Below, piece by piece: positions 573-19,081 of a stretch of DNA of 54,472 nt (position 1 is the first letter of the stretch; each line of letters begins with the position of its first letter). The notes below the pieces were generated by a model. The model did not search any database, was not told the DNA's origin, and worked only from the letters and a program-made list of their open reading frames with translations. The translations under genes and the position numbers were made by a program. Origin of the DNA: Chitinophagaceae bacterium (GTDB lineage Bacteria; Bacteroidota; Bacteroidia; Cytophagales; JASGCU01); assembly GCA_030053935.1 (NCBI GenBank), contig JASGCU010000003.1, positions 1 to 54,472 on the forward strand, read 5' to 3'.

Positions 573-3500
573 ATGAAAAAATCTTTTGTAAGAGTACAGT
601 TTGTTTTTTGTGGGGTTTTTATGTGGAGCGTGTTAGGTGTGTATGGAGGAGTGATTATGCGAGAGAATACTACTCTCTTAGCACCTGTGGTATATACTCC
701 GATTGAGGTGACAACTCAAAGTTTTGTAGCAAGGTGGTCTCGAATTGCAGGCGCTACGGGATATAGATTAGATGTGTCTACTAACTCTCATTTTACTTCT
801 TTGTTACCAGGATATGCAAATCTTTTATTGACAGATACTACAAAAGAAGTATTAGGTTTGGAAACAAGTTATATTTATTCGGTGGAGTATCGTTATTTTT
901 ATAGAGTGCGAGCTGTTAATACCACTACTAATACTATTTCGGGAAACTCCGATACTATTACTGTTATACCACCACCTCGTTTTACAGAGATGACGAGTAG
1001 TGGTTTTTCTCTGGTAGGGGTCAGTAATAATCCAAGTAATAATATTGGGAAGGCTACAAGTAGTTTTGGAGATTTTGATAATGATGGTGATTTAGATTTA
1101 TTTCTTGCGGGGAGGTCTTCTTATAATACTGTTATCTCAAAACTTTATAGGAATATGGGGGCTGCGGGTTTTGTGGAGATGAGTGGTCCTTATTTTTCCT
1201 TTGTGGCAGTAGAGCATTCCACATGTTCTTGGGCTGATTACAATAAAGATGGGTATGTAGACCTTTTTATATCTGGTGAAAATGGAAATCAAAAATATGC
1301 TTATCTTTATAGAAACGAAGGTGGGATAGCATTTTCTGTGGCATCTTTTTTTGAAGCGGTAAGTTCTGCTACCAGTTGTTTTGGAGATTATGACAAAGAT
1401 GGGTATCCGGATCTTTTTGTTTCGGGTGTAAATAGCAGTGGTAGTGTTACTATATCCAATATATATAAAAATAATGGGGGAAATTGGTTTAGTCTTGTTC
1501 TTAATACTAATATTGCAGGAACAGAAAATGGTTCGGCGGTTTGGGGGGACTATGATAAGGATTCGGACCTTGATTTATTGCTTTCGGGAACAGTTGGGTC
1601 GAGTGGTCCTTATTTTTTTCGTGTGTATGAAAATAGAAATGGTACTTTTACTCCTTCGTATAGTTTTGCATCTTCTGTTTATAATGGTAGCATAAGTGTT
1701 GGAGATTATGATTCGGATTCTGATATAGATGTATTCATTACCGGTCATTTCACGAGTTTGTATGGTATTTCCAAATTATATAAAAATAACTCCGTAAGTG
1801 CATTTTCTTTTTCAGAAGCATATCCTGGTAATTTTACAGGTTTAAAAAGTTCTACGGGAGCATTTGGAGATTACGATAACGATGGGGACTTAGACTTATT
1901 TCTTTCGGGAGTAAATGTTTCAAATGAAACACCTGTTATACAGATATATTATAATACAGGAAATGGTTTTGTAGAAGATCAGTATCATTTTCTTTCAGGT
2001 GTTTCTTCGGCTACTCAAAGTGTTGGAGATTATGATAATGATGGGGATATAGATATATTTATTTCAGGTAGAAATGCAAGTAATAATCTCGTTTCCAAGT
2101 TTTATAGAAATAACAGTATGAGAAATAGCCCCCCTCTTGTTCCTACTCATCTTCGTAGTGTAGTGAATGGACAAACGGTCACCCTCACATGGGATGCTAC
2201 AGATGATAGAACTGCTACTTCTGCTCTGAGTTATAATATATACATAAAAAGTATATACAATAATCAGATTCTAAATGTAACGAATGCTCTTGCAAATGGA
2301 GTCCGTAAGATTGCTGAAAGGGGGTCAATTGCCAAAAATAGCTACACCATTACTCTGCCATTTATTGCATCGTATTATAAATGGAGTGTTCAAGCGATAG
2401 ATGCTTCTTTACAAGGCGGAGCATGGGCAGCGGAGAGAGATAGTTTTTTTCTAAAACCTGTTGCTTTTCCCGCACAGAATATTACTACAAACTATACTTC
2501 TTATTTACAACCAACAGAATTTACTGCTTCGTGGAATGAATCACTAGGAGCAACGGGCTATCGTGTTGAAGTGGCATTAGATACAGGATTTACACAATAT
2601 GTTCATGGATATTCTGATACATTAGTAAGTGGAACAAATCTACGAGTAAGAGGGTATCCTTACACTACTTTTTATTATTACAGGGTTCGTGCTGTAAATA
2701 CAACTACTAACTTTGTTTCTTTATATTCTAACAGAGTTTCTCTTTTTGCTTCCAAGAATTTGAATCAAATAGGATTTGCAGAATGTAATACTTTTTTAGG
2801 GCAAAAAAGATCTTCTAATGATGTAGGAGATTATGATGGGGATGGGGATTTAGATATCATTGTTTCGGGAAATGGACAATATTCACAGCTCTACCAAAAT
2901 CAGGGAAATGGAAATTTTATAGAAGTATACCCAAATACTTTTATAGGGATTTATAAAGGGTATACTACATTTATAGATTATGATAATGATGGCGATGAAG
3001 ATATTTTTGTAACAGGGGGTAATGTTCAAAATGCTCTTAATCCTGTGGTAAAATTATATAAAAATAATGAAACGGGCTTTACAGAGTCGGTATTGCTTGT
3101 GGCTCCTTTTGAAACTCTCCATTCCCCAACGGGTGCTATTGGAGATTATGATAGTGATGGATATTATGATATATTTCTTTCGGGAGAAAGAGCAGATAGG
3201 AGTGCTTATAGTCAGGCATTTTACAGAAATATGGGAGGAACGGCTTTTACAAAAGTAGTATTTGACTCTATCCAAGCTGTAGGGAACGCTACCGCAAATA
3301 TGGCGGACTTTGATAATGATGGAGATTTAGATTTATTTTTGGGAGGGAGGAGGTCATTGATGGATTCTACGGTTGTATTATCTCAATTATACAGAAATAT
3401 AGGAACAGGATTTCGTAAAATGAGCAATACTTTTACGGGTATAAGAAATGGAACTTCTGCATTTATAGATTACGATAAAGATGGTTTTGTAGATCTCTGG

Positions 3501-6500
3501 GTTTCAGGAAACAACGGGACTACCAGTCCTGTACATCTTTACAAAAACATGAATGGAACGGGATTTACGAGGAGTAATTTTTCTGCTTTTACATACGCTC
3601 ATAATGTACATTCTACTTCTTGGGGTGATTACGATGGTGATGGGGACTTAGATGTTTTTATAGGACAAGCAGTATCAGGTTCTGTTTCCAAAATGTATAA
3701 AAACAACATAACGGGTTTTTCAGAAGTAGTGGGGAGTGCAAATTCGGGATTTCAGTTACCCTATTTAAGAAACGGAAGTAGTAATTTTGGGGACTTCGAT
3801 GGAGATGGAGATGCTGATTTATTGGTTGCAGGAGAAAATGAATCCTCACTTTCTTTCACAAAAATATATTGTAATAAGTCCATAGAAAATGAAACACCCT
3901 TTGATACACTTACTTTAGCATTAGATGATAGTTCTTTTACGGCATTAAATGGATCTGGCTCTATTCTTTTACAATGGAATAATACTACTCCTAATCGTCT
4001 TGCATTTAATTATGATATTTATATAGATAAATATTCTCGTTTTGATACCCTTCGTTCCCATATAAAAAAAACCAATGCTACTTCTCCCTATTTTAGAAGA
4101 ATTAATAATATTCCATATACGTCTGCTTCTTATACAGAAAATAATCTATCGCCTGGTTTTTATTATTGGAGTGTAAGACAATCGGATGGGCAAAGTTATT
4201 TAACAGAATGGGGTTCAGAAAGAACGTTTATGATTATTCCTCCCGCCAGTAAGGTTACTAAAAACTCTTTTGTTGCCATATGGAATAGATTAGACAGTGT
4301 CAGAAGTTATACAATGGAAACATCTCCCTCTTTTAATTTTACTACTATTGATTCTATCTATACGAACATAAGAGATACTGTCAAACAAATATCAGGCATC
4401 AATAATTCGTTATATTACCGAATAAAACCAATAAATGCCGATACCAGTATACACTATTCTAATATTATTTCTGTGAGATTAGATACGGGATACTTCTCCC
4501 CCAGTTATTCTTTTGCAGGAATGCATAATGGTGCTTCTGCTTTTGGAGATTATGATAATGATGGAGATATGGATATATTTATAATGGGTATTGGTAGCAC
4601 AGGTATTCCTATTAGTATGCTTTATAAAAATAATGGTATAAGAGGGTTTTCGGAAGTATTTCCTAACTTTTTTCCAAAAATAGCAAATGGTGCTGTTGAT
4701 TTTAAAGATAAAGATGGAGATGGGGATTTGGATATTTTACTAGTGGGAAATAATAACGGAACCGCAGCAAATTTCTTTTATACGAACAATAATGGAACCA
4801 GTTTTACTCCCGTTTCTTTCTCTAATGCTATTTACGATAATGTAAGAACTGCGTTAGAAGATTATGATAACGATGGCGATATAGATATATTTCTGTCTTC
4901 TCGGAGAGAACCACTTTATGAAGATATTATTTTTCGGAATAATGGAACAGGATTTGTGAGTATGAATACTCCATTTTCATCTGCAGACCAAATACAATTA
5001 GCAGATTTAGATATTGATGGAGATTTAGATATATTTGTAACCCAAAGGAATGTTGGAACTAAAGCCCCTGTTGTGTATTGGAATAGAAATGGCATATTTT
5101 CTACTTTAGATACTGCTCTTTCTACTTATTCTACCAAAAATGCTGCCTTGGGAGATTATGATAACGATGGAGACTTAGATATTTTTTTAGGAAACAATGC
5201 ATCTTCTCTTTTCAAAAATAATAATGGTATTTTTTCAGAAAAAATACCAACCCCTTTTCCTAGTACTTCTAATGGGTCCAGCGTATTTGCAGATTATAAT
5301 AATGATGGTTATTTAGATATGCTTCTCACCGGAAATATATCCCCTTCTAATCCTATTACACGACTGTATAGAGGAATTAAAAACGGATTTTCATCTAGTT
5401 ATTATACCTTTGTAGGGGTACAGAACGGAATCGCAAGCTTTGTAGATATCGATTTTGATGGAGATCTGGATGTTTTTGTAAATGGACAAGATAATACAAA
5501 TGCTTCTTATTCTATTCTCTATCTCAATAATAAAGATAATTTTAACCGTTCGGCAAATCCTCCCCTAAGATTAGAACACTCTGTGGTATCAAATAATAAA
5601 GTAGTTTTGAGTTGGGGAAATGCTACTGACATAGAAACACCTCAAAATGCTTTACAGTATAATATATCTCTGCGAAGCTCCCCATCAGGAAGTGAAATAC
5701 GCAGCTCTCATTTTTCTTCTATAAATAGCTTTAGAAATATAATAGAAAGAGGAAGCATCCAAGGAAATACAACATTTTTACAAACTCTTTCCCCGGGAGT
5801 TTATTATTGGAATGTGCAAGCAATTGATGCGGGATTAAAAGGTGGAGCATGGGCAACACAAAAAGCATTTACTATTACTCATGGGAAAAATGCTCAAACT
5901 ATAAGTTTTGATTCCCTTAGAACTCTCATTCCAACAAATCCACCTCTCTTACTTACTGCTACTTCCAGCTCGTCATTAACAGTATCTTACCAAAGTACGA
6001 ACACGAATATTGCTCTTATTTCAAATGACTCTCTCAAGACGAGAGGAGTAGAAGGAGAAACATATATTATTGCTTTTCAACAAGGAGATTCTTCTTTTTA
6101 TGCTGCAGAACCAATTGTACGAAAACTTATAGTGAGTCGGACTTTTCAAACATTAGATTTTTTAAATCCCATATCTAAAACTTATGGAGATAGTACCCAC
6201 ATACTTCCTGCTACCACTTCTGCGGGACTCATCGTTTCTTATATGAGTTCTAACTCTGGAGTAGCTACTATATATAACAATACCGTTACCCTCATAGGAA
6301 CAGGCACTACCCTCATCACTGCTACACAAACAGGAAATATAAGCTATACTCCCATTTCTCTTTCTCAAGTATTACGATACTCCAAACTTCAAACTATTAC
6401 CTTCTCTCTCCCAATGCAAGTAGAAGCTTGTAAAAGAACTAAGGTTATAGCAACCGTATCATCAGGTCTCACTCTATCGTACAGTAGCACCAATACTATG

Positions 6501-9500
6501 TTTATGAATACCATTCAAGATACTTCGCTTACTATACAACCCCTTTCTCCTAATATATTGCCATATAACCACACCATTACCGCGTATCAACCAGGAAACA
6601 TACACTACTACCCCTCAATACCCGTCACCCAAACAACCAATATCACAAAAATAAATACCTCTATCACTTTTGATACTATATCACGCAAAAGATACAATGA
6701 TATATTTACACTTCCTAACAACAGCTCTACAAATCTATCAGCTTGCTCAAATACTACTTTTCCTATAACTTATACTACAGCCCAGACAAATATTCTCCAA
6801 ATATCTAATAATACTATACAAGCAATAGGAGTGGGAACAGCAACTATAACCGCAACGGTATCTTCTAATTTTAGTAGTGTGTTTGGAAATTTTCACACAC
6901 CAAGCCCTGTTTCTCGAGTGGTAATGGTAGAAAAAACAACACAAAGTATCTCTTTTATAAATCTTTCTAACACCAGTTTAGGATATGTGGGTGCAAAAAC
7001 AATCAATGTATCCGCAAGTTCAGGACTCCCCGTAACTTTATCTCCCACGAGTTTAAATATTGGAAATATAACAGGTTCTCCGTGTAATTCATGGACAAGT
7101 TGTACTATCAATTTTACAGGAGGTGGTGGAACAGGAGGATCCAGAATTATTACTGCGAGTCAAGCAGGAAATTCTTATTATCTTCCCACACAAGTAGATA
7201 TAAGTATACCTGTGAAAGAAAATCAAACCGTAACATTTGTAAATCCATCACCACGAGAATACCGTTACGGTGATCCTCCGTTTGTTCTCACAACACCACA
7301 AGTTCAATATTCACCATCTATAACTACTAGAGTTTTTCCATTCCCTATAGACAGCTTGCGTGGTACAGTAAATTCTAAATATGACAGCATACTCGCAGCT
7401 GCTAATACTTCTGATAGTATAGTAATTTCTGGAATAGAAAGATTACGTGCAATATCGCTTTATAGAATGGACAGCTCAATTGATGACAGAATAACTTCTG
7501 CAACCAACATCTTTTTTGGGGTTAATAGTGGAGCAACTTCTGTAAAAGGAAGCAAGGAAGTTACAATTACTGGTCCAGTTATCCCAATCTTTCTCAGTTC
7601 TGATACTGAAGTAATTTCTATGAATAACGGTATGAGCGGCAATACAGCTACTATAGCAGGAGTTGGATTTGCTGAGATTAATGCTTTCGTTCCCGAAAGT
7701 GATAGATATTTTGAAGGAAACTCCTTTTATTCATCTTCTTTTTTACCTGTGAATGTACTGCAAGGAACACAGACGATTACCTTTAATGCTCTTCCTGATA
7801 AAATATACAGTGATACGAGTTTTATTATACTTGCATCTACAAATAGTAACCTTCCTATTTATTATGTAAGCACGAATACTACTATTCAAATAACCGGTGA
7901 TAGAGTAACATTAGTAAGACCGGGGGGAGCAACCATAACTGCTTACCAAACAGGAAATATTAATTACACATCTGCATCTCCCGTAAGCAGATCTTTTTCT
8001 ATATTCAAAGCACCTCAATCTATTTCTTTTTCTTCGCTCCCTGAAGTAACATACGGAGATAATTATATACTTTTAACAGCAGTATCGAATAGTCGGTTAC
8101 CCATTTCTTTTAACACTGATTTTACGGGAGCGTCTTCTGTAATTATATCTCATGATACCTTGAAAATACAAGCGGCAGGGACCGTCTTGATTATTGCATC
8201 ACAGTTAGGTAATGATTCTTATTACCCGGCAAGAGATAGTGTCCAAACACTCATCATTCATAAAAAATCACAAAGTATTACTTTTGATTCCATTCCTGTA
8301 CAAAAATTTATTGGGTCTAATCCGTTCTTTACAATCCCTATTAGGAGCAGTAGCAGCATCCCTATATCCTATTCTTTTTCTAACCCTACCCTTATCCAAT
8401 CCATATCCCCCGAAAAAGTAGTCACCATGAATGGTGTAGGAAGCACTATCATAACATCTCAACAATCAGGTAATAATAATTATACACCCTCTAATACTAT
8501 ATCTAGACTCCTAATTATTAAAGCAGACCAAAGCATCACACTAGCACCCATCCCTCCAAAATTCTATTTAGATAGATTCAAAGCAGATATTTTTACAGAG
8601 AGTCTTCGTCCTATAACATATAGATTCTCTAATACTCTCGCTACTGTTGTAGATGATACCCTCATAATGCAAGGAGTTGGAACCGTTGCTCTTACTGTAA
8701 AACTATTGGGAGATGCTTATTACCTACCATCTGATTCTATAACTAGAATTATTACCATAACCAAAAGATCCCAAACCATACGTATACCCCAACTTCCAAC
8801 AATACGATTCGGAGACGCACCATTTGTTCTCGGAATATCTGCAACCAGTTCATTATCCGTATCATCCAGAGCATCTAATGGAATAATTGTTCTTACCGGA
8901 AATACTGCCACTATAAGAGGTAGCGGAATAGTAGCTATCACATCTCAACAAACAGGAAATATAAACTTCTTACCAGCCAAAAGCGTGGTAACATTCTTAA
9001 CCATTCAGAAAAAAAGACAATCCATTGCTTTCCCTCCCATAGCAGAGAAAACATATCAAGATGCACCCTTCTCTCTAATAGCATCTAATTCCGCAAATCT
9101 CCCCATAACTTTCATCACATCAAACTCTAAAGTATCTGTATCCGGAAATAATCTCATTATTAACGAAGCAGGAATAACTACTATAACAGCATTTGGAATT
9201 GGAGATCAAAATTATGAAGCATCAGATAGTATATCCCAATCTCTTACAATACATAAAAAACAACAAACCATACATTTTCCAACAATACAACCTCTCGTCT
9301 ACCAACAAGAAATCCCAACTAATGCATCCGCTACAAGTCAACTCCCCCTTTCTTACCAAAGTTCCCATTCTGATGTCATCATTTTTAATAATACCATTAT
9401 AGCAAATACCGTCGGAACGGTTACTATTGTCCTTATACAAGAAGGAAATAAAAACTTCTTACCCGCAAATTTTGTATTTCAAATCATAACCATTAATAAA

Positions 9501-11807
9501 AAACCACAAACTATAACATTTCCAACAATCCCCAAAAAAATATACGGCGACCCCAATTTTATACTCCTCGCCACAGCATCCAGTAATAAAGAAATCTCTT
9601 TCTCCACATCTAATACACTTGTCAGTATATTCGGAAAAAACGCTACTATACAAGGAGCAGGAACAGTTACTATATATGCAATTCAAGAAGGCGATGATAT
9701 CTATGACTATGAACAAACAAGCCAAGTCCTTTCTATAAATAAAAAATCACAAAACATATCCTTCCCAATAATACCCCATAAAACAACCCTCAGCCCTCTC
9801 TTTACCCCCAATGCTACTGCTTCCTCCTTGCTCCCCCCCTCTTACATATCTCTCAATTCATCCGTATCTATGGTAGATAACCAATTTGTAAAAACACAGA
9901 GCGGAGGAATGGCACATATCCTTGCTTTGCAAACAGGAAATGAAAACTATCTCCCCGCAACACCTATAACACAATCTTTCATCGTCTTTGATTATATGAA
10001 AAAATTTCAAACAATACACTTTCCTACAATAGGAAATAAAATAATAGCCGATGAAACTTTTATACTCACAGCTTCCTCAACATCAGCATTAGAAATAACA
10101 TACATATCATCCGATACCTCCCTTGTCTCTATCATTGGAAACACCGCTCATATCATAGAAGGAGGGGCAGTTTCTATAACCGCATATCAATCAGGAAATG
10201 ATATTTATAATATTGCTCTTCCCGTCACCCAAATAGTAAATATATTCGACACCTATAAAGACCCCCAAACCATAACTTTTGAAAACTTTACCTATAAATA
10301 CTTAGAAGACCAACAATTTACCCTTACTGCCAACTCCTCTTCTAAACTCCCCATTACTTTTATCTCTTCCAACACAACAATAGCAACTATCACTCATAAT
10401 AATGTCATGTTGAAAAAAGGAGGAGTAATCCAAATAACAGCAAAACAAGACGGAAATACTTTTTATAACCCCGCCACCCCTATAACTAAAACACTTTTCA
10501 TCTTTGACAAAAGTAAAGAAAATCAATCCATTCAATTCGACCCCATTGCACCACAAGTTTTTGGATATCTATTCCCACCTCTCAATGCCTTTGCTACTTC
10601 AGGACTATCAGTATATTATACCTCACAAAATACAAATATAGCTACCGTAGATGGAAATATGATTATCGTCCAACAACCTGGTATTGCCACCATAACTGCC
10701 TTTCAAAACGGAGATGCAATTTATAATCCCGCCACACCAACCTCTCAATACGTTATAATACACGTCTATAACAAAAAATATCAAACTATCACCTTTAAAC
10801 CCATCCCAGAACAAAAACTATTTAACAAAAAACTCACCCTAACAGCATATGCAAGCTCCTCACTCCCTATATCATACACATCATCCGACTCCACTATCGC
10901 ATCTATATCTGAAAATATCGTTTCTTTCAAACAAAAAGGTATTGTATTTATAACTGCCCTACAACATGGAGACGAACATTTTAATCCCGCAATTCCTATC
11001 ACAGAAAAACTATTTATACAAGACCCAACAAAAACAACACAAACAATCACCTTCTCCCCTATAAACCCAAAATACTTCCACGAAAACACTTTCTCACTAA
11101 ACGCATTCTCCTCATCAGGATTAGAAATAATATATCAAACATCTAACCTAGAAATAGTAGCCCTCTATAAAAACACTATTACCATACTATCCCCAGGAAC
11201 CATAAATATAACAGCCACTCAAACCGGAAATAACGAATATCTCGCCGCTACACCAATAACCCAAACAATAACCATCAATAAATCATACCAAACAGCCCCC
11301 ATCCCCATAATTATAGAACAATGTCTCTGCAATCCCATCATTACACTGCCCCTATACTCCTCAGCCTCTCTCCCAATAACATACTCCTCGTCTACCAAAC
11401 TCCTCACTATCAATAAAAATAACTTTATTTTATTAAAAAATGGGATAGCTACAATAACAGCATACCAAACAGGAAATAATTTTTATAACCCAATAAACCC
11501 TTTACAGATTTTAGTAAAAATAACCCCTTTAATTCTTACTCCCACACAAAAAAATAATACCTCTATTACCATATATCCCAATCCTACTCATGACTATATA
11601 ACCATTCAATCGAATAAAACACAAAATGTTTCCGCCCTAAAATTATATGATATGACAGGAAAAAATTATGAACTCAAAATGAAAAGTAATGAATGGAACG
11701 GAACTTATGAAATAGACTTAAAAACATTGGTAAAAGGAGAATATATCTTAGTCCTCTACGATGAAACAGGAAAAATATTGAAAGCCGAAAAAATAACCAA
11801 GAATTAA
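573..11807 (+). CDS. Giant secreted FG-GAP / Ig-like repeat protein with T9SS type A sorting domain
   Basis: A 3,744-residue protein, probably exported and anchored at or released from the cell surface as an adhesin or matrix-binding protein (inference). Residues 1-25 form a signal peptide. Fn3-like domains (about 37-133, 520-735, 1105-1300, 1660-1770) alternate with three FG-GAP/VCBS blocks (about 159-515, 740-1100, 1310-1655). Each block has seven calcium-loop motifs of the type GDYDNDGDLDLF, so each should fold as a seven-bladed integrin-alpha-like propeller. From about residue 1775 to 3645 there are 21 repeats of 80-110 residues, each opening with a QTITF-like strand and containing S(T/S)N..IA...(N)..I...G...ITA.Q.GN..Y. 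These are Ig-like and related to bacterial surface Ig repeats. Residues about 3660-3744 (IYPNPTHDYITIQ, LYDMTGK, KGEYILVLYDETGK) are a T9SS type A sorting domain. Base skew changes near the propeller/Ig boundary. The family is clear; the ligand is unknown. Confidence 0.93.
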   Translation: MKKSFVRVQFVFCGVFMWSVLGVYGGVIMRENTTLLAPVVYTPIEVTTQSFVARWSRIAGATGYRLDVSTNSHFTSLLPGYANLLLTDTTKEVLGLETSYIYSVEYRYFYRVRAVNTTTNTISGNSDTITVIPPPRFTEMTSSGFSLVGVSNNPSNNIGKATSSFGDFDNDGDLDLFLAGRSSYNTVISKLYRNMGAAGFVEMSGPYFSFVAVEHSTCSWADYNKDGYVDLFISGENGNQKYAYLYRNEGGIAFSVASFFEAVSSATSCFGDYDKDGYPDLFVSGVNSSGSVTISNIYKNNGGNWFSLVLNTNIAGTENGSAVWGDYDKDSDLDLLLSGTVGSSGPYFFRVYENRNGTFTPSYSFASSVYNGSISVGDYDSDSDIDVFITGHFTSLYGISKLYKNNSVSAFSFSEAYPGNFTGLKSSTGAFGDYDNDGDLDLFLSGVNVSNETPVIQIYYNTGNGFVEDQYHFLSGVSSATQSVGDYDNDGDIDIFISGRNASNNLVSKFYRNNSMRNSPPLVPTHLRSVVNGQTVTLTWDATDDRTATSALSYNIYIKSIYNNQILNVTNALANGVRKIAERGSIAKNSYTITLPFIASYYKWSVQAIDASLQGGAWAAERDSFFLKPVAFPAQNITTNYTSYLQPTEFTASWNESLGATGYRVEVALDTGFTQYVHGYSDTLVSGTNLRVRGYPYTTFYYYRVRAVNTTTNFVSLYSNRVSLFASKNLNQIGFAECNTFLGQKRSSNDVGDYDGDGDLDIIVSGNGQYSQLYQNQGNGNFIEVYPNTFIGIYKGYTTFIDYDNDGDEDIFVTGGNVQNALNPVVKLYKNNETGFTESVLLVAPFETLHSPTGAIGDYDSDGYYDIFLSGERADRSAYSQAFYRNMGGTAFTKVVFDSIQAVGNATANMADFDNDGDLDLFLGGRRSLMDSTVVLSQLYRNIGTGFRKMSNTFTGIRNGTSAFIDYDKDGFVDLWVSGNNGTTSPVHLYKNMNGTGFTRSNFSAFTYAHNVHSTSWGDYDGDGDLDVFIGQAVSGSVSKMYKNNITGFSEVVGSANSGFQLPYLRNGSSNFGDFDGDGDADLLVAGENESSLSFTKIYCNKSIENETPFDTLTLALDDSSFTALNGSGSILLQWNNTTPNRLAFNYDIYIDKYSRFDTLRSHIKKTNATSPYFRRINNIPYTSASYTENNLSPGFYYWSVRQSDGQSYLTEWGSERTFMIIPPASKVTKNSFVAIWNRLDSVRSYTMETSPSFNFTTIDSIYTNIRDTVKQISGINNSLYYRIKPINADTSIHYSNIISVRLDTGYFSPSYSFAGMHNGASAFGDYDNDGDMDIFIMGIGSTGIPISMLYKNNGIRGFSEVFPNFFPKIANGAVDFKDKDGDGDLDILLVGNNNGTAANFFYTNNNGTSFTPVSFSNAIYDNVRTALEDYDNDGDIDIFLSSRREPLYEDIIFRNNGTGFVSMNTPFSSADQIQLADLDIDGDLDIFVTQRNVGTKAPVVYWNRNGIFSTLDTALSTYSTKNAALGDYDNDGDLDIFLGNNASSLFKNNNGIFSEKIPTPFPSTSNGSSVFADYNNDGYLDMLLTGNISPSNPITRLYRGIKNGFSSSYYTFVGVQNGIASFVDIDFDGDLDVFVNGQDNTNASYSILYLNNKDNFNRSANPPLRLEHSVVSNNKVVLSWGNATDIETPQNALQYNISLRSSPSGSEIRSSHFSSINSFRNIIERGSIQGNTTFLQTLSPGVYYWNVQAIDAGLKGGAWATQKAFTITHGKNAQTISFDSLRTLIPTNPPLLLTATSSSSLTVSYQSTNTNIALISNDSLKTRGVEGETYIIAFQQGDSSFYAAEPIVRKLIVSRTFQTLDFLNPISKTYGDSTHILPATTSAGLIVSYMSSNSGVATIYNNTVTLIGTGTTLITATQTGNISYTPISLSQVLRYSKLQTITFSLPMQVEACKRTKVIATVSSGLTLSYSSTNTMFMNTIQDTSLTIQPLSPNILPYNHTITAYQPGNIHYYPSIPVTQTTNITKINTSITFDTISRKRYNDIFTLPNNSSTNLSACSNTTFPITYTTAQTNILQISNNTIQAIGVGTATITATVSSNFSSVFGNFHTPSPVSRVVMVEKTTQSISFINLSNTSLGYVGAKTINVSASSGLPVTLSPTSLNIGNITGSPCNSWTSCTINFTGGGGTGGSRIITASQAGNSYYLPTQVDISIPVKENQTVTFVNPSPREYRYGDPPFVLTTPQVQYSPSITTRVFPFPIDSLRGTVNSKYDSILAAANTSDSIVISGIERLRAISLYRMDSSIDDRITSATNIFFGVNSGATSVKGSKEVTITGPVIPIFLSSDTEVISMNNGMSGNTATIAGVGFAEINAFVPESDRYFEGNSFYSSSFLPVNVLQGTQTITFNALPDKIYSDTSFIILASTNSNLPIYYVSTNTTIQITGDRVTLVRPGGATITAYQTGNINYTSASPVSRSFSIFKAPQSISFSSLPEVTYGDNYILLTAVSNSRLPISFNTDFTGASSVIISHDTLKIQAAGTVLIIASQLGNDSYYPARDSVQTLIIHKKSQSITFDSIPVQKFIGSNPFFTIPIRSSSSIPISYSFSNPTLIQSISPEKVVTMNGVGSTIITSQQSGNNNYTPSNTISRLLIIKADQSITLAPIPPKFYLDRFKADIFTESLRPITYRFSNTLATVVDDTLIMQGVGTVALTVKLLGDAYYLPSDSITRIITITKRSQTIRIPQLPTIRFGDAPFVLGISATSSLSVSSRASNGIIVLTGNTATIRGSGIVAITSQQTGNINFLPAKSVVTFLTIQKKRQSIAFPPIAEKTYQDAPFSLIASNSANLPITFITSNSKVSVSGNNLIINEAGITTITAFGIGDQNYEASDSISQSLTIHKKQQTIHFPTIQPLVYQQEIPTNASATSQLPLSYQSSHSDVIIFNNTIIANTVGTVTIVLIQEGNKNFLPANFVFQIITINKKPQTITFPTIPKKIYGDPNFILLATASSNKEISFSTSNTLVSIFGKNATIQGAGTVTIYAIQEGDDIYDYEQTSQVLSINKKSQNISFPIIPHKTTLSPLFTPNATASSLLPPSYISLNSSVSMVDNQFVKTQSGGMAHILALQTGNENYLPATPITQSFIVFDYMKKFQTIHFPTIGNKIIADETFILTASSTSALEITYISSDTSLVSIIGNTAHIIEGGAVSITAYQSGNDIYNIALPVTQIVNIFDTYKDPQTITFENFTYKYLEDQQFTLTANSSSKLPITFISSNTTIATITHNNVMLKKGGVIQITAKQDGNTFYNPATPITKTLFIFDKSKENQSIQFDPIAPQVFGYLFPPLNAFATSGLSVYYTSQNTNIATVDGNMIIVQQPGIATITAFQNGDAIYNPATPTSQYVIIHVYNKKYQTITFKPIPEQKLFNKKLTLTAYASSSLPISYTSSDSTIASISENIVSFKQKGIVFITALQHGDEHFNPAIPITEKLFIQDPTKTTQTITFSPINPKYFHENTFSLNAFSSSGLEIIYQTSNLEIVALYKNTITILSPGTINITATQTGNNEYLAATPITQTITINKSYQTAPIPIIIEQCLCNPIITLPLYSSASLPITYSSSTKLLTINKNNFILLKNGIATITAYQTGNNFYNPINPLQILVKITPLILTPTQKNNTSITIYPNPTHDYITIQSNKTQNVSALKLYDMTGKNYELKMKSNEWNGTYEIDLKTLVKGEYILVLYDETGKILKAEKITKN

Positions 11808-12032
11808 AAATAAAATGTAATACTATAATATATAAAATGATAACAGCTTATATCATTGTATGGAAATGCAAAAAAATAATGAAAAGATTCTTACATTTTC
11901 TCATTATTGTATATGATTATGTTACATATGTATTTTTCACCAGATAAGGCATATAAGTTCATAAAAGGTATCGGGTGCTTTCCCTCTCACAATAATAAAA
12001 ATCTATTTTTACAATCTCACCCAATAAAAAAC

Positions 12033-14951
12033 ATGAAAACCACATTAAAAATAACATTAGAAGCTCTAATAGCAGTATGTGTTTGTTTTTTCTCTTTTCT
12101 CAACGCCCATTCTACCCATATAAGAGCGGGAGAAATCATAGTAAGACGGCTTTCTGCCAGTGATTATAAATACGAAATAAAAGTAATTGGCTATACAAAT
12201 ACAAGTTCAACAGCAGATTTTGGAATGGGACAGCTCACTTTAGGAGATGGAACTATCCTTACCATAGATGACGTTGTTACTCTCCCCATAATAAACCAAC
12301 CCGTACCAGGTGCTGACAATGTAGGATATAATACATTAGTATTTGAACATACTTATAGTAATAGAGGAACTTTCATCATTGGTTATACAGAACCAAATAG
12401 AGATGAAGGCGTTCTAAATATCCCAAACTCCGTAAATACCCCATTTTATGTGGAAACAAAAATAGTTATCAACTCCCAATCTACCTCTTCAGTAGGTCTT
12501 AATAGAAGCCCCGTCTTTACTTCTAAACCAATCGATAAAGCAAACGTAGGATCTATTTTTTTTCATAACCCCGGCGCCTACGATCCGGATGGAGATAGCT
12601 TATCATTTTCTCTCATTACTCCTCAAAGCAACGCTAAAAAAGATATTAATGGGTATAGACCACCCAATTTCAACTCTTTTTATACCAATATCAATTATGC
12701 ACAAGGAAATGAAGCAAAAAATGGAGAACCTCTTTTTTATATAAATGATACTACAGGAACCCTTACATGGGACGCACCTGGCGATGCAAAAACAACAACA
12801 AGAGATGGTACTAAAAGAGAATATAACATCGCATTTAAAGTCACAGAATGGAGAAAAAACTATGGAACTTGGAACGAAATAGGATATGTAGTCAGAGATA
12901 TGCAAATAATAGTAGAAGAAACAGATAATAAACGCCCCGAACTCATAACACCACCAGATACCTGTCTCATAGCAGGCAATACAATAGAAAAAATTATCAG
13001 AACCCAAGACCCTGAAAACCTCCCTATGAAAATAGAACTCTTCGGAGCAATGAGTCAAGACGACTTCATAAACCCTCCTACCATATTCCCTAAATTTATT
13101 GTCCCCGAATATATTGCAAATGCAAAAATGAACTTTCTATGGAAAACTTCTTGTGAAAATATCAGAGACGTCCCTTACCAAGCCATCTTTAAAGTCACAG
13201 ATACACACCCCGCACCATTCTCTTCCCCACGATTAGTGAACTTTAAAACTTGGGAAATACAAGTAGTACCACCTCCTCCTCAAAATCTTATCGCTACACC
13301 ACAACCCAAAAGAACCATAAAACTCACCTGGGATAAATATGTATGCCCAAAAGCAGATAGCATACAAATATGGAGAAAAGTCGATAGCTTTGCATACTCC
13401 CCAAAACCATGTGAACTGGGAATACCTAAAAATGGAGGATATGAACTTATCACAAAAACCCACACTGCCCATACAGAATACACAGATGATAACAATAAAA
13501 AAGGATTAGCGCCCGCAGCTACTTATTGCTATAGAATAGTTGCAAATGTTCCATATCCCTACTCCCTTGAAAGCATAGCTTCCGATGAAGCATGCACTAC
13601 TATTTTAGGAAGCGCACCCATTATAACAAACGTAGATATTAATAAAACAGATACAGAAACAGGAGAACTTTCCATAAAATGGAAACCACCATTTCAAATA
13701 GATTCCCTTGATATAGTACCACCATATACTTATAAAATACTCAAAAAAGAAAAAACAGAACCTCACTTCTCAACCCTAATAGAATCGACTCCCGATACCT
13801 TTTTCATAGAAAAAAAACTCAATACAGCTGATAAAACACACTTTTATAAGATAATGCTCTTAGATAAATATAAAAATATCCGAGACAGCTCTGCTATTGC
13901 AAGCTCCGTAAGAGCTGAAATAAAACCAAGTGCAGGATCATTAGAACTAACATGGTCCGCAGAAACCCCATGGACCATAAAAAGTCAAAAATACCCTACT
14001 CATAATATCTTTAGAAATAATGCTATTCCCCAATATCCCGATAGCATGGTAAAAATATCCGAAGTAAATATATTTACAAACGAATTATATTATGCAGATA
14101 ACGGAACTTATAATAGCACTCGTTTATCCGAAAATACAGAGTACTGTTATTACATACAAACATTAGGCACCTACCAAAACCCAAGAGTACAGGACCCCCT
14201 TCTGAATAGTTCTCAAATAATATGCTCCAAGCCAAAGGATACCATACCGCCATGTCTTCCAACACAGTTTACTCTCAACGCAGCTTTGAATAACGACCAT
14301 TGTGAAAGTAAACTGAATGACCAATGTCAATTTGAAAATATCTCTAATACCATTACATGGCAAAACCAAATATCAGACACATGCCAAAATGACCTTGCCT
14401 ATTATAAAATATATTTTACCGATGATATAAACATCGCTCTCAAACCTATTGCAACAGTCACTATTAACCAAAAAATCAAAGAACAACAATTTATTCACAC
14501 GAATATACCTTCTTTTAAAGGATGCTATTATATAACCTCCGTAGATAAATCCAATAATGAAAGCAAACCCACAGAAAAAACCTGTGTAGATAACTGCCCA
14601 TTCATATATTTTCCCAACGTTTTTACCCCAAATAATGACAAAAAAAACGATGTATTCACTCCCTATTATTACATAGACCAAACAAACTCAGCAGAATTTA
14701 ACAAAATGCTCTGCATCAGATTTGTAAAAAATCTTACTTTTTTTGTTTTCAATAAAGACGGCGTAACTGTCTATAATTATGATTCTAGAACCAACGAAAA
14801 TAGTATTTTCATACAATGGAATGGAAAAGGAAATAATGGAAAAGAACTAGAATCTGGAGTCTATTTTTTTGAAGCATCTGTAGAATTGGATGTGTTAGAT
14901 ACAAAAAATACTCAAAAAAAATATAAAGGATGGATACAAATAATGAGGTAA
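12033..14951 (+). CDS. Secreted multidomain protein with gliding-motility-associated (T9SS type B) C-terminus
   Basis: 972 residues from the ATG at 12033. The frame is open further upstream to 11907, but a proper signal peptide (KITLEALIAVCVCFFSFLNA) starts only at 12033. The mature N-terminus HSTHIRAGEI and the following 100 residues match the conserved opening of large Bacteroidota surface proteins. The middle contains a cadherin-like PDGDSLSFSL segment and Fn3-like stretches (from about residue 413). The last 115 residues (FPNVFTPNNDKKNDVF, FNKDGVTVYNYD, WNGKGNNGKELESGVYFF) are the CHU_C / gliding-motility C-terminal domain recognised by T9SS. It follows the giant gene by 225 bases in the same direction and shares its C-over-G strand bias, so the two may be a surface-protein pair. 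The exact function is unknown. Confidence 0.9.
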   Translation: MKTTLKITLEALIAVCVCFFSFLNAHSTHIRAGEIIVRRLSASDYKYEIKVIGYTNTSSTADFGMGQLTLGDGTILTIDDVVTLPIINQPVPGADNVGYNTLVFEHTYSNRGTFIIGYTEPNRDEGVLNIPNSVNTPFYVETKIVINSQSTSSVGLNRSPVFTSKPIDKANVGSIFFHNPGAYDPDGDSLSFSLITPQSNAKKDINGYRPPNFNSFYTNINYAQGNEAKNGEPLFYINDTTGTLTWDAPGDAKTTTRDGTKREYNIAFKVTEWRKNYGTWNEIGYVVRDMQIIVEETDNKRPELITPPDTCLIAGNTIEKIIRTQDPENLPMKIELFGAMSQDDFINPPTIFPKFIVPEYIANAKMNFLWKTSCENIRDVPYQAIFKVTDTHPAPFSSPRLVNFKTWEIQVVPPPPQNLIATPQPKRTIKLTWDKYVCPKADSIQIWRKVDSFAYSPKPCELGIPKNGGYELITKTHTAHTEYTDDNNKKGLAPAATYCYRIVANVPYPYSLESIASDEACTTILGSAPIITNVDINKTDTETGELSIKWKPPFQIDSLDIVPPYTYKILKKEKTEPHFSTLIESTPDTFFIEKKLNTADKTHFYKIMLLDKYKNIRDSSAIASSVRAEIKPSAGSLELTWSAETPWTIKSQKYPTHNIFRNNAIPQYPDSMVKISEVNIFTNELYYADNGTYNSTRLSENTEYCYYIQTLGTYQNPRVQDPLLNSSQIICSKPKDTIPPCLPTQFTLNAALNNDHCESKLNDQCQFENISNTITWQNQISDTCQNDLAYYKIYFTDDINIALKPIATVTINQKIKEQQFIHTNIPSFKGCYYITSVDKSNNESKPTEKTCVDNCPFIYFPNVFTPNNDKKNDVFTPYYYIDQTNSAEFNKMLCIRFVKNLTFFVFNKDGVTVYNYDSRTNENSIFIQWNGKGNNGKELESGVYFFEASVELDVLDTKNTQKKYKGWIQIMR

Positions 14952-15048: not shown

Positions 15049-15489
15049 ATGAAAAGAACATATTTAGTATTGGTAGTACCGTTTTTCATATCCACTTGGG
15101 TATATGCCCAAAAGGACAGCATTGGAGGAAGCATTTTATCTGCATCCTTACAATTCCCTCCGAAGGAAGTAAACTGGCTCTCAAGCAAAGGTTTTACTTA
15201 TGATACCTATAATGGAAGGAACGAGGAAGTAAATTATTATCTGCGGCAGGCAGTAAGATATAGAAAGCAGAGGAAAAATAATCTACTCATTGGAACGGGA
15301 ATTGGTTTTGCAGCTGCAACTCCTCTTTTTATATATGCTGGAATTCTTATACATGATTTAGTAACGCACCCGAGGATGCATTTTCTTAATTTTGGTGGTA
15401 CTGTTATAAAAACGCTTTTGATTATGGCGGGAGTAGTAGTGACTGGTACAGGATATGGTATAGAGCATAGTTTTACCCCCACCGTATAA
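15049..15489 (+). CDS. Putative exported membrane protein, first half of a duplicated unit (probably frameshifted)
   Basis: 146 residues. It begins with a signal peptide (MKRTYLVLVVPFFISTWVYA, then QKDS). Residues 63-80 (EEVNYYLRQAVRYRKQRK) lead into two hydrophobic segments (about 82-104 and 120-140). The frame stops just after a run of five C at 15476-15480. One more C would continue the frame as FTPHRIKRRSGLSIYDAQ and join it to the next ORF, whose start region then completes the missing end of this unit. I do not recognise the family. It could be a separate small protein, but the match between the two halves favours one broken gene of about 286 codons. Confidence 0.65.
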   Translation: MKRTYLVLVVPFFISTWVYAQKDSIGGSILSASLQFPPKEVNWLSSKGFTYDTYNGRNEEVNYYLRQAVRYRKQRKNNLLIGTGIGFAAATPLFIYAGILIHDLVTHPRMHFLNFGGTVIKTLLIMAGVVVTGTGYGIEHSFTPTV

Positions 15490-15524
15490 AACGTAGATCG
15501 GGGCTGTCTATTTATGATGCACAA

Positions 15525-15908
15525 ATGGCTCTGCGAGGAGAAGGAGAAAGAAAAACCACTCCTCCTAATGAATTTAACACTATGAGGTATTTATCTTGGT
15601 TAGAAGAATACTCTTTTCATGTAAAAAGTTATAAGTGGGATGTGGAAGAAATAAACCTGCACCTGCGAGCCGCCATAAAGAACAGAGAAACACTCAGAAA
15701 AATAAGAATATATGCAACGGGAGCATTAGCAATAGCTGGTGCAGGAATTATTGCATCCAGCACTCTTAATACACCTTCTGTAAATAATTCTGCTGTGATA
15801 ATATCAGGAGCAGCACTTGCTGGTACCACTATATTTCTAAACATACATCTTAGAAATAAGGCAAGGAAGCATGTGCAACAGGCAAATATGTTGCGTGCTG
15901 TAAGATAA
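15525..15908 (+). CDS. Putative membrane protein, second half of a duplicated unit
   Basis: 127 residues from the first ATG, but the frame is open back to 15471 and the upstream codons look coding. Residues 43-61 (EEINLHLRAAIKNRETLRK) align with EEVNYYLRQAVRYRKQRK of the preceding frame. Two hydrophobic segments follow, then a basic end, RNKARKHVQQANMLRAVR. That end resembles KRRSGLSIYDAQMALR, which is encoded across the junction upstream. This indicates tandem duplication within one original gene. There is no signal peptide of its own, as expected if it is the C-terminal half. Function unknown. Confidence 0.6.
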   Translation: MALRGEGERKTTPPNEFNTMRYLSWLEEYSFHVKSYKWDVEEINLHLRAAIKNRETLRKIRIYATGALAIAGAGIIASSTLNTPSVNNSAVIISGAALAGTTIFLNIHLRNKARKHVQQANMLRAVR

Positions 15909-15948
15909 AATTTGTATCTCTGTGCAAATATTTGAGTATAGGAATCAT

Positions 15949-15975
15949 CCCTCCCACCAATGGCAGAAAGGGAGG
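15949..15975. other. GC-rich hairpin in intergenic space
   Basis: CCTCCC at 15950-15955 pairs with GGGAGG at 15970-15975 across a 14-base loop, in otherwise A/T-rich DNA 40 bases after the preceding stop. There is no T-run behind it, so it is not a classical terminator. A frame reading through it (about 15911-16027) is open for roughly 38 codons but has no start codon and no recognisable product. Confidence 0.35.
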
Positions 15976-16110
15976 CATAGTAGTGAATGATTATAAAGAT
16001 GCTTATTGTTTTGAGGCGTTGAAATAAGAAAAAATAGTAAAACAGAGAGGATAATGTAAGAGTTAAAAACCCTTGTGGTTGGTCTCATTATAAAAATATA
16101 AATAAGAAAA

Positions 16111-16127
16111 AGAGTGTCCGTAAAGAC
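16111..16127 (+). repeat. IS-end-like sequence AGAGTGTCCGTAAAGAC
   Basis: This resembles the outer end of the dispersed repeats at 281-340 and 28349-28410 when those are read on the minus strand (AAGAGTGTCTGAAAA and AAAGAGAATGTCCGAAAA). It stands alone upstream of ilvN with no transposase. A chance match in AT-rich DNA is possible. Confidence 0.35.
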
Positions 16128-16206
16128 ATTTTTGTTATAAATATCATAATTTATGTAGATTTTCGTAAAATGTTAAATAGATACAATAATTTTTAATACA
16201 TCAAAT

Positions 16207-16788
16207 ATGTCATCACTTTATACAAAACAAATGGAAGAAGATACAGAAAGAGATTTTACTCTTTCTGTATTAACAGAAGATAAAGCAGGATTGCTGAATC
16301 ATATTACTATTATATTTACACGTAGAAAAATAAATATAAAAAGTTTGAATGTTTCTTCAACAGAAGTAGAAGGAGTAAGTAGATTTACTATAGTAGTATT
16401 TTCTACTCGGGAAAGAATAGAAAAAATAGTAAAACAAATTAAAAAATTGGTAGATGTTTTGGGAGCTTTTTTATACGAGGATACCCAAATTCATTACCAA
16501 GAATTAGCTCTTTATAAAGTTCCTCTCAAAATATTTATGGGAGGCGATAAAATAGAAAAGATAGTAAGAGATAATAATGCTCGTATTTTAGCAATAGAAG
16601 AAGATTATATAATCATTGAAAAAACAGGACATAAAAACGAAACCTCTGCTTTATTTGAATCTTTATCACCATATGGGGTTTTAGAATTTGTACGTTCGGG
16701 GAGAATATCTATGTCTATGAGCAAACGTCCAACACAAACCTTTTTGAAAGAGTTAGAAGAAGCAAAAACAAATTCTATTTACCAATAA
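16207..16788 (+). CDS. ilvN: Acetolactate synthase small (regulatory) subunit
   Basis: 193 residues. It is the regulatory subunit of acetohydroxyacid synthase, the first common step of valine, leucine and isoleucine synthesis; it binds valine and activates the IlvB catalytic subunit. Residues about 16-88 are an ACT domain (LSVLTEDKAGLLNHITIIF, RRKINIKSLNVSSTE). Residues about 100-180 match the ALS C-terminal domain. Length fits the family. The usual partners ilvB, ilvC and ilvD are absent from the window, which is unusual. The next gene starts 6 bases after the stop and may be co-transcribed, but it is functionally unrelated. Confidence 0.93.
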   Translation: MSSLYTKQMEEDTERDFTLSVLTEDKAGLLNHITIIFTRRKINIKSLNVSSTEVEGVSRFTIVVFSTRERIEKIVKQIKKLVDVLGAFLYEDTQIHYQELALYKVPLKIFMGGDKIEKIVRDNNARILAIEEDYIIIEKTGHKNETSALFESLSPYGVLEFVRSGRISMSMSKRPTQTFLKELEEAKTNSIYQ

Positions 16789-16794
16789 TATTGT

Positions 16795-18042
16795 ATGAAA
16801 GCATTGCGTTTAGTACTTGAAAGTTTTTATTTTGCAGCGGCAGCATTAAAAACAAATTTATTACGAACAATACTCTCTTTGGCTGGGGTCACTGTTGGAA
16901 TATTTGTAATTATTACAGTTTTTACTTTGGTAGATTCTTTAGAAAAAAGTGTAAAGGAGAGTTTTAATTTTATAGGATCCGATAATCTCTATGTAGAGAA
17001 ATGGCCTTGGGGATTTTCAGGAAATTACCCTTGGTGGAAATATATAAATAGACCTCAACCTACTTATGAAGAATATAAATTTTTAGAGTCTAATCTTGAT
17101 TTCTGTAAAGCAATTACGATTATTTCTTTTGCTGATAACGTAACAACTAAAAAAGGCAGTAACTCTTGCAGAGGGAATTTACAAGGGGTTTCTTATAGTC
17201 ACAAAAACGTATATGACATCCCTATAGAAAAAGGAAGATATTTTACAGAATTAGAAGCCGATAATGCATCCAATGTTATTGTTTTAGGTAGTAAAATAGC
17301 AGAAAACCTTTTTAAAAATGAAGACCCTATAAAAAAAAGAATTAGTATAAAAGGGCTCAAGTACTTTGTTGTGGGAGTAATCAAAAAAGAAGGGGAAAGC
17401 TTCATTGGAAATACAAGTAATGATGAAAATATGTTCATGCCTATTAAATCATTTAAGAAAATTTTCTTTTCAAACTCATACGATGGAGCGTATACGTTCT
17501 TTGCGGCAAAGGCGAAACAAGAAGATATTGGTATGACGGAATTGGAAGGAGAATTAAGGGGGTTACTAAGACAAAAAAGAACATTGAAACCACAACAAGA
17601 AGATAATTTTGCAATTAATCGACCAGAGGCACTTGCCTCGTTTTTTGCTTCTATATTTAGTGTGTTAACCATCGCAGGATGGGTTATTGGAAGTTTTTCA
17701 ATTCTTGTAGGAGGATTTGGTATAGCAAATATAATGTTTGTATCGGTAAAAGAAAGAACTCATATTATCGGTATTCAAAAATCATTAGGGGCAAAAAATT
17801 ATTTTATTCTTTGCCAATTTCTCTTTGAATCTATCTTTTTAAGTACTATAGGAGGAATGACGGGGCTATTTTTAGTGTACCTTATCACTTTTATTCCAAT
17901 AGGTTCTCTCTCCTTACAACTGACAATAGGAAATGCATTGGTAGGTATATTGGTTTCTTCTATCATTGGAATTGTTTCCGGAATAATTCCTGCATTTAAT
18001 GCTTCTCGATTAGACCCAGTTATTGCTATTAGAACACAATAA
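16795..18042 (+). CDS. FtsX/MacB-type ABC transporter permease
   Basis: 415 residues with the layout of MacB/LolC/FtsX-type permeases. There is one transmembrane segment near the N-terminus (about 20-45, after LKTNLLRTILSLAGVTVG), a large periplasmic domain (about 46-280), and three C-terminal segments (about 284-310, 335-362, 373-402). The FtsX-like end carries KERTHIIGIQKSLGAK and RLDPVIAIRTQ, typical of the family. It would work with a separate ATPase, which is not encoded nearby. Export of a lipoprotein, peptide or small molecule is possible; the substrate cannot be inferred. Confidence 0.88.
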   Translation: MKALRLVLESFYFAAAALKTNLLRTILSLAGVTVGIFVIITVFTLVDSLEKSVKESFNFIGSDNLYVEKWPWGFSGNYPWWKYINRPQPTYEEYKFLESNLDFCKAITIISFADNVTTKKGSNSCRGNLQGVSYSHKNVYDIPIEKGRYFTELEADNASNVIVLGSKIAENLFKNEDPIKKRISIKGLKYFVVGVIKKEGESFIGNTSNDENMFMPIKSFKKIFFSNSYDGAYTFFAAKAKQEDIGMTELEGELRGLLRQKRTLKPQQEDNFAINRPEALASFFASIFSVLTIAGWVIGSFSILVGGFGIANIMFVSVKERTHIIGIQKSLGAKNYFILCQFLFESIFLSTIGGMTGLFLVYLITFIPIGSLSLQLTIGNALVGILVSSIIGIVSGIIPAFNASRLDPVIAIRTQ

Positions 18043-18046
18043 TTTT

Positions 18047-19081
18047 ATGTATTCTATTCAAGAGAGAGTAAATCTTTTTCCCTTTCATACATTTCATTGC
18101 CATGTGTTTTCAAAATATTTTATAGAAGTGAAACAAGAAGAAGATTTAAACTCCATTCTTTCTTCAAAAATATTTTCTGAAAATCCTTATTTTATTATCG
18201 GAGGGGGCAGTAATATTCTTTTTTTACATGATTATGAAGGGATTATTCTAAAAATATCTCTTATGGGTATAACATTAATTACAGAGGATAGTGACACAGT
18301 AGTTATAAAAGTAGGTGCAGGGGTTATTTGGGATAATTTTGTAAGTTTTTGTGTTAAAAAAAATTATGGAGGGATCGAAAATCTTTCCTTAATACCTGGT
18401 ACAGTAGGAGCAAGTCCTATTCAAAATATAGGTGCTTATGGAGTAGAAATAAAAGAATGCATAGAAAGAGTATATGCTTTAGATGTTATTTTACAAAAAG
18501 AATGTTCTTTTTCGGCTGAAGAATGCCAATTTGATTATAGAAATAGTATATTTAAAAATTCTTTGAAAGGAAAAAAGATTATTACGAAAGTACTTTTTAG
18601 ATTGTCTAAAAAACCGAAAATAAATATTTCTTACCCAGATGTGCAAAAAAAATTAAAAGAACGGGGTATACTATATCCTACTTTATTAGATATCCGTAAA
18701 GCAATTATACATATAAGAACAGAAAAACTCCCCGACCCCCATGTACTGGGAAATGCGGGAAGTTTTTTTAAAAATCCTATTATTTCATTTTCTGATTTTC
18801 AAAGAATACAAAAACAATATCCGGATATTATAGGATATAAACAATCGCATTCTTTTGTAAAAATACCAGCAGCTTTTTTAATAGAAAAATCGGGATGGAA
18901 AGGGAAGAGAATAGGTATGGTAGGAACTTATCCCAAGCAACCATTAGTAATAGTAAATTATGATAATGCTACGGGAAAAGAGATATGGGATTTTGCGCGT
19001 ATGATACAAAAATCTGTATTTGATTTATTTGGCATCCAATTAGAACCTGAGGTAAATATACATTATAAAACGATTATATAA
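18047..19081 (+). CDS. murB: UDP-N-acetylenolpyruvoylglucosamine reductase
   Basis: 344 residues from ATG 18047, five bases after the permease stop. The alternative ATG at 18023 would overlap that gene by 20 bases and adds no conserved sequence. MurB reduces UDP-GlcNAc-enolpyruvate to UDP-MurNAc with NADPH and FAD, in cytoplasmic peptidoglycan precursor synthesis. Seen: FAD-binding IIGGGSNILF and LIPGTVGASPIQNIGAYG, the YRNSIFK segment, the catalytic-serine region NAGSFFKNP, and the C-terminal catalytic glutamate in LEPEVNIH. Length and motifs indicate a full-length type I enzyme. Its 3' end overlaps the convergent rnc gene by 8 bases. Confidence 0.96.
   Translation: MYSIQERVNLFPFHTFHCHVFSKYFIEVKQEEDLNSILSSKIFSENPYFIIGGGSNILFLHDYEGIILKISLMGITLITEDSDTVVIKVGAGVIWDNFVSFCVKKNYGGIENLSLIPGTVGASPIQNIGAYGVEIKECIERVYALDVILQKECSFSAEECQFDYRNSIFKNSLKGKKIITKVLFRLSKKPKINISYPDVQKKLKERGILYPTLLDIRKAIIHIRTEKLPDPHVLGNAGSFFKNPIISFSDFQRIQKQYPDIIGYKQSHSFVKIPAAFLIEKSGWKGKRIGMVGTYPKQPLVIVNYDNATGKEIWDFARMIQKSVFDLFGIQLEPEVNIHYKTII

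Follow-up and report, generated by a model that had tools for sequence, protein, structure and literature searches.

A Chitinophagaceae protein with three seven-bladed propellers in series, a candidate multivalent adhesin of the type IX secretion system

Does a bacterial protein with three seven-bladed propellers in one chain resemble integrin alpha heads in anything beyond blade number, and what might such a protein do? The question is raised by the first large open reading frame (ORF) in the window, by which we mean the whole 54,472-nucleotide stretch analyzed (positions 1 to 54,472 of contig JASGCU010000003.1, assembly GCA_030053935.1, Chitinophagaceae bacterium). An earlier note on positions 573-5890, which encode the first ~1773 residues of the 3744-residue product, had described a secreted protein with three FG-GAP blocks, each with seven D-x-D-x-D-G type loops, separated by spacers resembling fibronectin type III (Fn3) domains and followed by a long immunoglobulin (Ig) stalk; it likened the blocks to integrin alpha heads and proposed a multivalent adhesin. 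We find that the blade counts hold, that the integrin comparison was overstated, the likeness ending at blade number and fold, and that the protein is a well-made example of the VCBS-type kind already described and not something new. It probably acts as a multivalent binder displayed on the cell surface, and an adhesin or matrix lectin delivered by the type IX secretion system (T9SS) is the likeliest role.

Blade number and fold of the heads

Calcium loops were counted with the pattern D-x-[DN]-x-[DNS]-[GSAD]-x-x-D, which gave 21 matches in the whole protein, seven each at residues 167-486, 753-1074, and 1326-1625, and none outside these three blocks in the rest of the 3744 residues. The loops lie 46-56 residues apart within heads; 17 of the 21 are strict DxDxDG, and the other four deviate by N at the third position (two loops) or by S where G is expected (two loops). 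The shuffled protein gave a mean of 0.1 matches and a maximum of 2, which rules out a chance origin. Degenerate blades may escape a search by motif, and we therefore built a blade hidden Markov model (HMM), trained on 400 blades from other proteins with the window protein excluded. It likewise found 21 blades, 7+7+7, at residues 141-515, 741-1103, and 1312-1661, and neither a degenerate eighth blade nor any blade outside the three heads in the whole protein. The seven loops in each of three blocks are thus borne out by motif and by profile, the blade numbers are equal, and the residue ranges given earlier for the blocks lie near those of the HMM.

Head 1 was modeled with AlphaFold2 (residues 129-545, alignment of 44 heads), giving a predicted local distance difference test score (pLDDT) of 89.2, a predicted template modeling score (pTM) of 0.87, and 28 strands arranged as seven four-stranded blades. 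Judged from strand order rather than from coordinates, the N-terminal strand probably supplies the fourth strand of the last blade, the usual arrangement by which a propeller is closed. Heads 2 and 3, modeled jointly by the same program (residues 645-1790, 19 alignment rows), show seven-blade strand patterns at lower confidence (mean pLDDT 74, pTM 0.47), and the spacers in this model are poorly resolved. All three heads therefore have the predicted strand order of seven blades, head 1 with confidence and the other two less so. The best Foldseek match of head 1 is CRTAC1 (template modeling [TM] score 0.65), with integrin alpha and the PVL/PAL lectins among its neighbors and also aldos-2-ulose dehydratase (4a7z, TM 0.61); a sequence-profile search returned CRTAC1, integrin alpha-4/V, and PVL lectin. 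The Foldseek search with the two-head model was set aside, since long multi-domain receptors dominate it and its TM scores are meaningless.

FG-GAP_3 (PF13517) matches the 3744-residue protein with E 1.1e-85 and 282.6 bits against a cut-off of 26.9. A match to NF040734 (SaoC) scored far under its cut-off and was treated as the same blade repeat. The assignment as a secreted VCBS/FG-GAP_3 propeller protein with a long stalk is supported.

Seven blades and serial heads in related proteins

For comparison we used 79 loci found by scanning named genomes, the source genome not among them; the loci were picked by similarity to the query, so that the sample leans to close kin, and many phyla are spanned. 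Among heads with at least four blades by profile, the count was seven for 103 of the 114 in these loci and for 24 of the 31 in the source genome. Motif-only counting had given six or fewer blades for some heads, most of which the profile count moved to seven. Throughout the VCBS/FG-GAP_3 family seven is the usual blade number and hence unremarkable; in bacteria it is by itself no evidence for integrin-like function. Among the few departures, the second head of one source-genome paralogue (L061, contig C53) has eight blades by profile count.

Heads in series are likewise not confined to this protein. Four occur in L079 (from a metagenome-assembled genome labeled Litorilinea) and in L075 (Perlabentimonas), three each in L077 and L081, and there are many two-head loci besides (profile count), so that proteins with two to four serial heads turn up repeatedly in phyla that are not related. 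The FG-GAP_3 blade family itself is present in 53 of 59 genomes searched. VCBS proteins have been described as secreted prokaryotic proteins that may hold several propellers and Ig-like domains (Pereira and Lupas 2021, PMC8023676), a description that fits the present protein and makes it one of a known kind. Like the VCBS-core proteins (PMC8023676), it has a probable signal sequence and Ig-like domains and contains several VCBS propellers whose loops are of the DxDxDG type; there is no fundamental difference, and what is particular here is the head number of three, the great length of the stalk, and the sorting domain for T9SS. From the FG-GAP_3 (PF13517) T9SS type A substrates of Bacteroidota, which it matches in profile score and sorting domain, it differs only in the number of heads and stalk repeats. 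The value of the locus lies mostly in a clean annotation: it encodes a candidate adhesin with several propeller heads, the parts of which can be counted.

Secretion and proposed function

The claim that the protein is secreted is backed by its type A sorting domain and by homologues of PorU (E 1e-241), SprA (E 0), and PorV (E 6e-117) in the source genome, where Por_Secre_tail has 43 matches. The C-terminal domain (CTD) and the machinery in the genome support its classification as a predicted T9SS type A substrate.

The proposed adhesin function rests on the 7+7+7 blades, the structural and sequence-profile neighbors of the heads, the type A CTD, the T9SS homologues, the paralogues of the same plan with other head and stalk numbers, the distribution of amino acid changes in a recent paralogue pair (see below), and the precedent of BapP; a multivalent adhesin stays the most likely function, plausible by architecture. 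The N-terminal signal peptide, as read from the sequence, would direct export by Sec. Passage across the outer membrane would then proceed by T9SS through the type A CTD, with PorV shuttling and PorU cleaving the protein, and would end, as known T9SS biology suggests, with the protein either released or attached to the surface of the cell. The ~20 Ig-like repeats could push the N-terminal part outward by perhaps tens of nanometers, and the distal tip would be formed by three rigid seven-bladed VCBS-type propellers, each blade presumably stiffened by one Ca2+. Variable loops on the propeller faces may recognize a ligand, either a glycan or a protein, and avidity could come from the serial arrangement of three heads.

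The closest experimentally studied architectural parallel that we found is BapP of Pseudoalteromonas tunicata (PMC12153261), a secreted protein with a propeller, a tandem Ig-like stalk, and a link to Ca2+-dependent biofilm, for which it is needed and whose structure it affects. BapP differs in having a single five-bladed propeller and 12 stalk domains and is not reported as a T9SS substrate. The gliding adhesins SprB and RemA of Flavobacterium (PMC10202324) are also surface adhesins delivered by T9SS, and RemA has a type A CTD.

Several observations weigh against the adhesin or lectin function. No ligand or binding residues were identified, and calcium binding by the heads is suggested by the motif only. 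The GW motif in the D-A' loop, which helps form the sugar pocket of PVL and tachylectin-2 (PMC8023676), is absent from residues 141-1680, which cover all heads; this rules out membership among the PVL/tachylectin-2 lectins, although the heads may yet have a lectin-like function. The spacers are hinted to be Fn3-like, as had been claimed, by fn3 matches at E 0.05-0.13, all of them sub-threshold. In close paralogues the ratio of nonsynonymous to synonymous change (dN/dS) is about 0.4, nonsynonymous change lying below synonymous overall, and positive selection on the heads is not shown.

Alternative explanations

Bacterial integrin-type propellers were defined by an FG-GAP/Cage motif with a conserved proline; each of their blades has a Ca site, and two of the domains sometimes occur in tandem, whereas integrins have Ca loops in 3-4 blades per head (Chouhan 2011, PMC3192720). 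The propellers of that study share with ours the seven blades, a Ca loop in each blade, and more than one head per protein, but they were chosen for the Cage motif in every blade and have one or two heads compared to three here. In our protein, a proline at the GAP position of the motif is found in 0 of 21 blades, and the Ca loop is present in 21 of 21, i.e., 7 of 7 per head; the missing proline and the Ca-site count together rule out integrin-type membership, and of the original parallel the blade number and the general fold are left standing. A functional homologue of integrin alpha heads is accordingly very improbable, even with seven blades, DxDxDG loops, and Foldseek and profile matches to integrin alpha in its favor, as the loops do not follow the integrin count, neither a partner subunit nor a transmembrane segment was seen, and the top structural match is CRTAC1, not integrin. 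CRTAC1, the integrin alpha head, and the PVL/PAL lectins have in common with our heads the Ca-loop seven-bladed propeller fold, but at ~10-19% identity, as single heads, and without the bacterial stalk or CTD.

Another explanation is that heads and stalk bind their own copies or those of paralogues and so build a biofilm or sheath as an extracellular matrix or cell-cell scaffold, in place of attaching to a foreign surface. Many paralogues in the same genome share the stalk repeat (at least 94 matches) and the head clade, and the effect of BapP on biofilm structure points the same way, but no sequence feature points to self-association, and we consider such a scaffold rather unlikely. It is improbable that the protein is a glycan-degrading or -modifying enzyme, or the accessory binding module of one, with propellers as catalytic or carbohydrate-binding scaffolds like those of the RGL11 lyases and aldos-2-ulose dehydratase. 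The latter is among the matches of head 1, and both belong to the same supercluster (PMC8023676); on the other side, Pfam and NCBIfam reveal no catalytic domain in 3744 residues, and three serial heads on a long repeat stalk suit projection more than catalysis. The T9SS-delivered adhesin or matrix lectin is the function that we prefer.

Stalk repeat and paralogues

The long Ig stalk of the earlier note was found as ~20 repeats, each ~82 residues long, of which the part at residues 2208-2399 is divergent; the similarity to Big_2 is weak. Pfam does not recognize the repeat (best match Big_2, E 0.042), which occurs in 29 of 59 genomes searched within the order and may merit its own family model. 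A headless relative on contig C1 (~3666-47891, minus strand, loci L158-L160) spans 14,741 residues in an open frame and contains ~82 copies of the stalk repeat and a T9SS type A sorting domain but no propeller.

FG-GAP_3 has 149 matches in the source genome. The paralogues there have 1-4 heads and 1-20 stalk repeats, some frames running past contig ends. The sister protein L060 (contig C34; 3888 residues) combines four heads of seven blades each with 17 stalk repeats; L061, L062, both genes of L066, L067, and L068 have two heads each, and the remaining paralogues one. In a tree of heads, the 16 alignable heads of the source genome with seven regular loops form one clade with support 99/98, indicating that heads expanded within the lineage. 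Heads 1, 2, and 3 are mutually 31-34% identical, and head 1 clusters with heads of two other proteins (95/88), apart from heads 2 and 3. A recent internal triplication of one head is not supported by this identity and grouping, although a single clade of heads 1-3 is not rejected by the approximately unbiased (AU) test (p 0.11).

The two-headed tandem paralogues of L066 (contig 68) are mosaics. They have zero amino acid differences in residues 1-100, 601-800, and 1201-1300, with one silent change in total over these tracts, which alternate with others at 0.1-0.4 synonymous differences per site. The pattern suggests gene conversion; an assembly artifact or chimera is possible. In a recent paralogue pair, 0 of 56 amino acid changes fall at Ca-loop positions 0-3, and changes concentrate in the segments immediately preceding the loop and 12-31 residues beyond it, a distribution to be expected if a rigid scaffold carries variable loops on its surface.

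As a tentative proposal, which we would put on the doubtful side, the genome may maintain a set of T9SS head-stalk proteins, specific to its lineage and recombining, whose blade number stays at ~7 while heads (1-4) and stalk (1-20 repeats, 82 in the headless relative) vary as separate modules, tuning the valency and reach of surface binding through domain copy number. With these paralogues gathered in a single small genome, the effects of head number and stalk length on attachment could be studied in a practical way.

Gene layout and neighboring genes

The features of the gene are listed in Table 1.

Table 1. Features of the three-headed propeller gene (positions in the window)
Feature	Position	Strand	Evidence and remarks
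Whole gene, head-stalk T9SS substrate, 3744 aa	573..11807	+	ATG start; Pfam FG-GAP_3 E 1e-85, Por_Secre_tail E 6e-10
Probable Sec signal peptide, MKKSFVRVQFVFCGVFMWSVLGVYGG	573..650	+	Judged from sequence by eye
N-terminal segment preceding head 1	678..977	+	Fn3-like on sequence look only; zero Pfam matches at E 1
Head 1, seven-bladed VCBS-type propeller, residues 141-515, seven Ca loops	993..2117	+	Motif, blade HMM, AlphaFold2, Foldseek
Spacer between heads 1 and 2, two weakly Fn3-like domains	2118..2792	+	fn3_4 E 0.13, fn3 E 0.053, both below cut-off
Head 2, seven-bladed propeller, residues 741-1103, seven Ca loops	2793..3881	+	Motif, blade HMM, model of residues 645-1790
Spacer between heads 2 and 3	3882..4505	+	Beta strands in low-confidence model; no fn3 match in Pfam search
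Head 3, seven-bladed propeller, residues 1312-1661, seven Ca loops	4506..5555	+	Motif, blade HMM, model of residues 645-1790
Spacer after head 3, weakly Fn3-like	5556..5894	+	fn3 E 0.098, below cut-off
Stalk, ~20 tandem Ig-like repeats of ~82 residues, residues 1775-3646	5895..11510	+	Repeat profile
T9SS type A C-terminal sorting domain, residues 3667-3737 of 3744	11571..11783	+	PF18962 E 6e-10, TIGR04183 E 7e-9, both pass cut-off

No PorP/SprF domain was found in the scanned genes at 15049-19081. Between these and the propeller gene lies the next gene, at 11907-14951 on the plus strand, whose 1014-residue product carries a sorting domain of the CHU_C kind (T9SS type B).
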